Shown here piece after piece: positions 22,748 to 32,744 of a stretch of 49,590 nt of DNA. The position numbers were made by a program, and so were the translations under genes. The notes below the pieces were generated by a model. That model saw nothing but the letters and a program-made list of their open reading frames with translations, was not told the origin of the DNA and did no database searches. The stretch spans positions 1 through 49,590 of the forward strand of contig JALWSS010000150.1 in NCBI GenBank assembly GCA_026993525.1, in the 5' to 3' direction. The DNA is from Saprospiraceae bacterium. GTDB taxonomy: Bacteria > Bacteroidota > Bacteroidia > Chitinophagales > Saprospiraceae. Position 1 is the stretch's first letter. The number at the start of each line of letters is the position of its first letter.

Positions 22748-22828
22748 TTGAGGAACTGAGGAACTGAGGAATTGAGGAACTGAGGAACTGAGGAACTGAG
22801 GAACTGAGGAATTGAGGAATTGAGGAAC
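22748..22828. repeat. TGAGGAAC/T octamer array
   Basis: About ten tandem copies of an 8-bp unit, TGAGGAAC or TGAGGAAT, begin six bases after the stop codon of the PLP enzyme gene. A degenerate complement (TTCTTCAATTCC, GGTTCCTCAATTC) lies at 4705-4765. Confidence 0.9.
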
Positions 22829-25250: not shown

Positions 25251-25749
25251 GAGCCCGCTCCCCTTTAAATTCCTAAAGCACTTTTTTCAGTGTCCTCAGC
25301 AGTGGTTTTCCAATGCTTTTCCGCCTGGGCGTAAACGATGCCACAGGCCGAACTTTGCATGGATTTACCGATATTAAATCAATTCTGCCGGATATCCGGT
25401 AAATGATGCAGAATAGTAAATACACCAGTTCAACAGCTTCTCACCCCCGTACCTTTGGATCAATATCAGTATTCAATGAGCTTGAAATATTTTATTTCCG
25501 CTTGTTTCACAGTGATGGAAAATGATTGTTGCACTTATCGCCATTACAAATCAAGGACCCAATACCAGAATATCCCTGAGCGAATGCACTGGATTGCCTC
25601 ACCTGCAATTGACAGATGATCGCAATTCAACAGCCCCGGCAAAAATTGGATCGCCAATTTGTTTTCGTGGTGGCAACTGACATCACTTAGCTGGGGTCAG
25701 GAGTGGAACACCCCTAAAGCCGTTCTTAGACTGTGCACCAATTATTTGT
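25251..25749. other. Intergenic DNA without a supported gene
   Basis: These 499 bp are fairly AT-rich and show no intact gene on either strand. Short open stretches, for example one on the minus strand at about 25370-25275 with a 31-codon frame, have no recognisable product. It probably holds decayed coding sequence upstream of the LamG remnant. Confidence 0.4.
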
Positions 25750-31817: not shown

Positions 31818-32744
31818 TTAACCGGTTTCTTCAATTGAAAGCGCTTCACAGCTTCCTATCCACTCGTTGAAATGGGGACAGGCATCTCGCAATGCTTCCA
31901 TCCCCGTGAGTGCAGCAATTGCGGGGCCTGTGTTGGACTTGTTGCCATCGTATTCAGGGATCAGGGCAATAATTCTTTTAGAAGGAGCGGTTGTATGCCC
32001 TTCATCGATGAGTTCGGGATTGCCCCCATTTTCTTCCACAATTTTCTCCAAAACCCCGATAGCAACTTCGTGTTCAAAGAATTCATATTCTGAGTCCACT
32101 GCAAAAACCCCCAATTCATTAATTCCAACAGGAATTTGAATGCTCACATGCCGGACGGAGTCCGGCTGGATGAGGCACCGGACGGAGTCCGGCGCCAGCA
32201 ACTACGCTGGTTCCGGACTCTGTCCGGGACCATATCTTGTCGGACTCTGTCCGACATTTTTCCAGAAGGAATAGCCTCGTTTGACGAGACTAACACTTTT
32301 TGCAGTGGGCTCACATTCTAAATTTCGTGCATTTGCCAGTACCAATGCTTCAAACTCATGTAGTTGGATGTAGGCAAAAAAGCGGTGGTCGCCAATCTCG
32401 TCGTTCATGGCCTGTTCGAGGAAAGCCACCTTGTCGTAAGGGTCGTTGATGCGCTGAGCTTCTTCGCAACAGGAGAAATCATTGGGCAAAGCATACAGAT
32501 CGAACATGGTAGTGAAACAGATATCAGAATTCCGGTCTTCCTTCAGCCAGGTTTCGATGTCTTTTTTGGCCCTGGCGTAGCTCAACAGACCTCCCCTGTA
32601 AGCTTTGTACTTATCCTTGCTGGTGAGTACCCGTCTCACATCTGTCGAAATATCGAAATGGCCCAGGTGACTGGCAAGCGTATCTTTCACGAAGCGTTCT
32701 TCGGTTTGTCCTTCTACGGTAATATTTAATCGGATGAATTTCAT
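31818..32744 (-). pseudogene. TOPRIM-like DUF4276 gene split by an inserted element
   Basis: From the ATG at 32744 the frame gives MKFIRLNITVEGQTEERFV, the DUF4276 opening with the acidic TOPRIM-like motif (E11, E15). It continues to HEFEALVLANARNLE and then enters an inserted 221-bp element, where it stops at 32202. The family C-terminus (HEVAIGVLEKI, TAPSKRIIALIPEYDG, CPHFNEWIGSCEAL) resumes on the far side. Removing 221 bp plus one 7-bp target copy (228 bp, 76 codons) restores one frame of 232 residues, reading NLEYEFFEHEV across the junction. The start overlaps the stop of the ATPase gene by ATGA, so the two were translationally coupled. OLD/PARIS-like ATPase-TOPRIM pairs act in phage defence; that role is inferred. 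Confidence 0.85.
32092..32312 (-). mobile_element. Non-autonomous transposon-like element (MITE), copy A, 221 bp, inside the DUF4276 gene
   Basis: The terminal inverted repeat is GAGTCCACTGCAAAAA (32092-32107) against GAGCCCACTGCAAAAA read from 32312, 15 of 16 matching. Flanking 7-mers ATATTCT (32085-32091) and ACATTCT (32313-32319) match at 6 of 7 and look like a target duplication. The interior carries four CCGGACNNNGTCCGG-like palindromes. No transposase is encoded. Orientation is opposite to copy B. Confidence 0.8.

Follow-up and report, generated by a model that had tools for sequence, protein, structure and literature searches.

Several described systems resemble the elements reported here. 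The IS5 group recognised by NF033578, which includes ISMae6, ISAcma17 and an element on contig C222 of the present host genome, has ends near GGGTCTGCTGAAAAAGT that resemble GAGTCCACTGCAAAAAGT of the elements described here, and its duplications are mostly of 6 bp and sometimes of 7 bp, as they are here. However, members of this group carry their own transposase gene, produce TA...TA duplications and have non-identical ends. The MITEs BrickBuilt and MITE464 of Porphyromonas gingivalis, considered with their IS5 partners, are likewise short gene-less elements of Bacteroidota with repeats inside, and their ends resemble those of IS5-family elements of the GAGACC..TTGCA type (PMC4596501); they differ in their ends, and BrickBuilt has a 23-nt minisatellite interior and duplications that are reported for three of four copies and vary in length. 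MITECca01 of Cardinium is a MITE of another Bacteroidota lineage, whose parent, ISCca4, is described (PMC9769881); the likeness is one of description.

The window, which is the whole stretch of 49,590 nucleotides analysed here, contains two copies (Table 1) that are very probably MITEs with 16-bp inverted ends, moved in trans by a transposase from elsewhere in the cell. An earlier note, made from the letters alone, had placed both copies and their ends correctly, as the sequence and matching with GAGTCCACTGCAAAAA agree, and the flanking duplications it had claimed are borne out (exact for copy 1, one mismatch in 7 for copy 2). It was also right that the copies lie in opposite orientations, with the GTG end first in copy 1 and the CCC end first in copy 2. 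The sequence GAGTCCACTGCAAAAA is found exactly at the left end of both copies, and with two mismatches (copy 1) or one mismatch (copy 2) at the right end. With up to three mismatches allowed, the window holds five matches against 0.60 expected, and five or more were reached in none of 100 shuffles; the fifth match, at 25282–25297, is probably a chance occurrence. Direct comparison of the two copies gives similarity with E < 0.001 at the ends only (16–25 bp), so that the interiors of this pair are indeed unrelated. Copy 1 is flanked by a DUF3822 gene and a PF03602 methyltransferase gene, which we take to be rsmD-like.

Table 1 Features of the window, with positions counted from its first letter.
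Feature	Start	End	Strand	Description
Copy 1	4510	4703	+	194 bp, family B; GTG end at the left and CCC end at the right
Copy 1 left target duplication	4504	4509	+	ATTCTT
Copy 1 right target duplication	4704	4709	+	ATTCTT
Copy 1 terminal inverted repeat	4510	4525	+	GAGTCCACTGCAAAAA
Copy 1 terminal inverted repeat	4688	4703	-	GAGTGAACTGCAAAAA
Copy 2	32092	32312	+	221 bp, family A; CCC end at the left and GTG end at the right
Copy 2 left target duplication	32085	32091	+	ATATTCT
Copy 2 right target duplication	32313	32319	+	ACATTCT, one mismatch
Copy 2 terminal inverted repeat	32092	32107	+	GAGTCCACTGCAAAAA
Copy 2 terminal inverted repeat	32297	32312	-	GAGCCCACTGCAAAAA
DUF4276 gene, N-terminal part	32313	32744	-	PF14103 positions 1–115 of 192
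DUF4276 gene, C-terminal part	31818	32091	-	PF14103 positions 121–189 of 192
AAA_21 ATPase gene	32741	33825	-	Two overlapping frames
8-bp array	22749	22828	+	TGAGGAAC, 10 units, no element
7-bp array cluster	22851	23318		GAGTAGG, TCATCCC and other units across the three clusters
7-bp array cluster	25102	25237		
7-bp array cluster	33897	34096		
195-bp repeats	37558	38113		About three repeats
195-bp repeats	38344	39045		About three repeats

Judged by its sequence, a DUF4276 gene is interrupted by copy 2: the two sides of the copy, searched separately against PF14103, match successive parts of that family. The frame is kept if the copy is counted with seven bases (221 + 7 = 228), whereas 221 + 6 is not divisible by three. 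The broken gene can take the place, in part, of the strain alignment by which the earlier note would have its insertion junctions judged. Beside this gene lies an AAA_21 ATPase gene in two overlapping frames. Presumably the ATPase and DUF4276 genes form a two-gene pair, possibly defence-like, which would have decayed twice.

The description of a two-copy family in the earlier note is correct for the window but not for the genome. In the 5.16-Mb host genome (G000), GAGYNNACTGCAAAAA ends occur 147 times without mismatch (72 + 75; reversed pattern, 0 + 0), and the lack of further copies that the note had named as evidence against itself gave way to dozens more. Copy 2 belongs to family A, which occupies at least 40 places in this genome (itself included) at 76–100% identity, 37 of them near full length and three cut at contig ends. 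Copy 1 belongs to family B, for which, with copy 1 counted, at least 24 places are near full length (71–100%) and more are partial. These counts are lower bounds, because 40 of 132 candidates were scored for copy 2 and 40 of 254 for copy 1. On the opposite strand, the search with copy 2 gave 17 weaker matches, which reflect its own palindromes. Sorting of 54 elements of the host genome assigned 28 to family A and 18 to family B and set eight aside; by eye, three of these eight belong to family A and two to family B.

The alignments of the 28 family-A and 18 family-B copies reveal an interior that is largely conserved within each family. The interiors of copies 1 and 2 thus differ because the copies represent two families, and the proposal of conserved ends around a variable cargo does not hold. 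One exception among the 28 family-A copies (C26 92723) has only a stretch of approximately 48 bp at one end in common with the others, so that the joining of an end to a different interior does happen. The suggestion that the elements pick up local repeat units survives in part: CCCGA hairpins are swapped, but in copy 2 the CCGGAC palindromes are part of the family core. At least one CCCGA hairpin is present in 19 of 30 family-A copies, and neither extra hairpin in the remaining 11. The left position holds CCCGAAG (10 copies) or CCCGAGTC (9 copies), the right position holds CCCGAAA (11 copies; one copy with Ns was scored as lacking the right hairpin), and five of the six possible left/right combinations were seen. 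In family B, a CCCGA hairpin is present in six of the 18 aligned copies, copy 1 included (by eye). The units are thus swapped, mostly inside families. The 3′ block is of two kinds, which differ in length. One family-B copy of the host genome (C154 26; L121:26–258) has a palindrome nested in a CCCGAAAGCC..TTCGGGA palindrome, and hairpins may grow at their tips.

The target duplications were counted in 66 elements (53 from G000 and 13 from G004), which are not all of the copies; they remained from 72 end pairs in the fetched loci after six were dropped (four longer than 330 bp, one with a common right end and one with a flank too short). As in MITEs, these elements are short (111–320 bp, by size alone too short for a transposase gene), have 16-bp terminal inverted repeats close to GAGTSCACTGCAAAAA, occur in many dispersed copies and are accompanied by target-site duplications. 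An exact repeat at the junctions is present in 48 of the 66 Saprospiraceae elements, comprising 39 repeats of 6 bp, seven of 7 bp and two of 8 bp, against means of 7.9, 0.3 and 0.0, respectively, for permuted flanks; the 6-bp mean is as high as 7.9 because many flanks are alike. Copy 2, with its one mismatch in 7, is among the 18 elements without an exact repeat. All 48 exact repeats start with A and finish with T. Nine repeats exceed 6 bp; by eye, eight of them have a base other than T in sixth place (the exception is AGTTCTT), and repeat length therefore seems to be set by the position of the closing T. At C41, C87 and C194, elements stand back to back with one common hexamer.

Chloroflexota and other Bacteroidota hold most of the further occurrences of these ends and repeats. 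Within the host family, a G-extended end pattern was detected in six of 398 genomes, with more than one match only in G000 (74) and in G004 of the same genus (44); the single matches in G010, G018, G039 and G429 may be due to chance, since two other genomes have one hit of the reversed control. A search of 100 relatives with the end pattern found matches in four. Among GTDB contigs, GAGTSCACTGCAAAAAG marks at least 90 loci, of which, by record title, 65 are from Chloroflexota, 16 from Bacteroidota (seven of these from G004) and nine from other groups; among these nine, the Planctomycetaceae contig L305 carries an element of 171 bp flanked by an exact repeat of 6 bp. With G004 (PAAY01) left out, the loci from the GTDB scan and from related genomes yielded 76 different short elements whose ends could be paired, none of them in the G000 or G004 loci. 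Of these, 38 have an exact repeat of at least 5 bp (two of 5 bp, 29 of 6 bp and seven of 7 bp, with permuted means of approximately 0.7 for 6 bp and 0.1 for 7 bp) and 38 have none. The repeats are of the form A...T in 32 of 38 cases, with C before the repeat in 20 and G after it in 23. The distribution is patchy: in the surroundings of Roseiflexus, the pattern was found in three of eight genomes. Plasmid DNA gave no match to the ends or to copy 2, and viral contigs gave two hits with no element seen around either. Among the titles listed by literature searches, including one with ACTGCAAAAA, none is on these ends; most subscription journals lay outside these searches, and absence from print is not claimed. 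The occurrence of one signature in at least two phyla suggests a widespread transposase.

The earlier note had proposed that the elements are moved in trans by an unseen transposase. Their non-autonomous nature, inverted ends and duplications fit that proposal; the transposase itself was not found between such ends in any genome examined. The host genome contains four ends of a GGGGGG type and four of the CCCCTATTTCATTA type (CCCC), all running off contigs, as expected of four near-identical longer copies whose interior was dropped by short-read assembly. An inner repeat of 26 bp is common to these eight ends (92%), and the hexamers beside them can be paired one to one; the ends are the probable termini of a longer parent element of these MITEs. 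Searches of the host assembly with both end types gave no contig holding the interior, and short-read assemblies may lose the transposase because its copies are nearly identical. The peptide of the parent end matched, among 298 genomes of the family, the host genome itself and four others weakly (E 0.03–0.09); in the same or a longer form it matched nothing in NCBIfam or plasmids and no IS5 protein convincingly. No transposase was recognised by eye in the open frames beside the ends at 11 loci of the host genome.

Other genomes gave a similar picture. In G439 (Muribaculaceae), at least seven of 29 ends lie within approximately 140 bases of a contig edge (L224, L233, L234, L255, L315), as expected of a multi-copy parent lost in assembly. 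One 140-base end used as a query against 297 genomes of that family matched 31, at full length only in G439. The single-contig 5.80-Mb genome of a Roseiflexus relative (G742) has 30 exact ends, all of which were covered in stretches of up to approximately 4.5 kb. By eye these ends bound short elements, four ends having no partner within four mismatches, and the sole transposase seen around the 30 ends is an IS110-type gene, in three places. Two 1.31-kb pairs in this genome looked like the parent but were rejected, since the gene that they enclose, inside one of these short elements, is of the IS110 family. Such genes lie inside L370:3278–4592 and L371:3195–4508 and beside an element in L379, and start at the same motif, GAG followed by TAACTGTG (Pfam was run on L370 only). 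In G441 (Caldilineaceae), 40 chosen ends comprised 36 of short elements and four with no near partner or recognisable transposase.

DUF772 is the usual N-terminal domain of IS5 transposases. The one DUF772 gene of the host genome lies in the IS5-family element on contig C222 (NF033578; score 376 bits, cut-off 275), which has ends GGGTCTGCTGAAAAA and the 6-bp duplication TATTTA. When the three best readings of each are considered, an exact repeat is seen in 11 of its 12 plasmid relatives and none in L436; nine of these repeats are TANNTA and two are of 7 bp (TAACATA and TACGTTA). Of six more distant relatives, three have TANNTA. The outline G.GTC..CTG(C)AAAAA is common to the ends of the MITEs and of the C222 element (12 of 15 positions and a gap, by eye), and the end GAGACCTTTGCAAAA of ISNme1, which is listed as IS5 in Table 2 of PMC4596501, matches, by eye, 12 of the 15 positions of GAGTCCACTGCAAAA. 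From these sequence likenesses, an enzyme of IS5 type has about even odds of being the one that mobilises the MITEs.

The enzyme that moves the MITEs might instead belong to a different DDE family, perhaps one not yet described, with autonomous copies that would be rare or extinct in most hosts, a reading that we place only a little short of even. It has to accommodate the likeness in outline of the C222 ends, the agreement of ISNme1 and the 6-bp and occasional 7-bp duplications produced on both sides. However, the IS5 relatives with a clear repeat duplicate TA...TA, unlike the A....T repeats of 6, 7 and 8 bp found here, and three bases and a gap set their ends apart from those of the MITEs. 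Moreover, the parent-end peptides match nothing, and no autonomous copy was seen in G742. DUF772 is present in five of the ten genomes searched (G000, G439, G441, G748 and G749) and absent from the other five (G004, G010, G742, G744 and G440); four of the latter (G004, G742, G744 and G440) carry the elements, so that the IS5 link can only be inferred. The DUF772 elements of G439, G441 and G748 have other ends, and none of those examined has GAGTCCACTGCAAAAA ends.

The MITEs would, in the mechanism that we propose, be moved by a transposase from elsewhere in the cell that recognises GAGTSCACTGCAAAAA-like ends and joins them to the target at two cuts spaced by 6–8 bases, with an A immediately 3′ of each. 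Repair of the staggered cuts would leave the 6–8-bp duplication A...T. In this scheme we infer the cutting step, the assignment of the enzyme to the DDE transposases and the identity of the parent as the element with the 4 + 4 run-off ends. Two odd repeats have in this way led to a large mobile family, of which the copy number, the ends, the A...T duplications, the frequent location beside TGAGGAAT units and the interruption of a gene can be read in the DNA, one copy being seen to break a gene; the end and duplication signatures provide a handle for seeking the missing transposase.

By a crude motif test, an array-like unit occurs in the 32 flanking bases of 51 of the 66 elements (37 of the 51 with an exact repeat), and most copies outside the window lie beside arrays of the kind seen at 22749–22828 in it. 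Matches between the flanks at an offset of 8, which is the period of the arrays, were found for 14 of 66 elements. These observations, together with flanks in inverted order at C19 40369 and C99 5281, are what would be given if the copies had spread by recombination between arrays and the flanking repeats were array units. Such an origin is highly unlikely, and is largely refuted already: away from arrays, 11 of 15 elements without the motif have exact duplications (for example, AGAAAT at C14, ATGATT at C15, AGATAT at C25 and AGGTAAT at C76; permuted mean 0.76, maximum 5), copy 2 lies inside a gene, and the 38 repeats outside Saprospiraceae comprise 35 different sequences. An origin as REP-type extragenic palindromes, mobilised like IS200/IS605 by a Y1 (HUH) transposase, is very improbable, in spite of the strong predicted fold of copy 2 (one long hairpin, z −9.88) and the short but perfectly paired hairpin CCACT-GCAAAA-AGTGG in copy 1, at its GTG end (z −2.84 for the whole copy): Y1 elements are not known to make a target duplication, and the duplications in 48 of 66 elements largely refute this origin, the two ends being, moreover, mutual inverted repeats.

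For MITEs moved by a transposase, the arrays are best read as targets, since the TGAGGAAC array of the window is empty and such arrays thus exist without elements. We would suggest, as a tentative extension that we hold to be somewhat doubtful, that all of these elements are moved by one unrecognised transposase lineage, spread over Bacteroidota and Chloroflexota and perhaps over other phyla, that an A on each strand sets the cuts, and that the 8-bp arrays of these Saprospiraceae serve as safe landing sites. If so, the target would decide whether the duplication is of 6, 7 or 8 bp, with no fixed stagger.

The window also contains repeats of other kinds (Table 1). The clusters of 7-bp arrays lie partly within longer repeats of 92–105 bp, and the two groups of 195-bp repeats lie within an open frame of 3440 residues.
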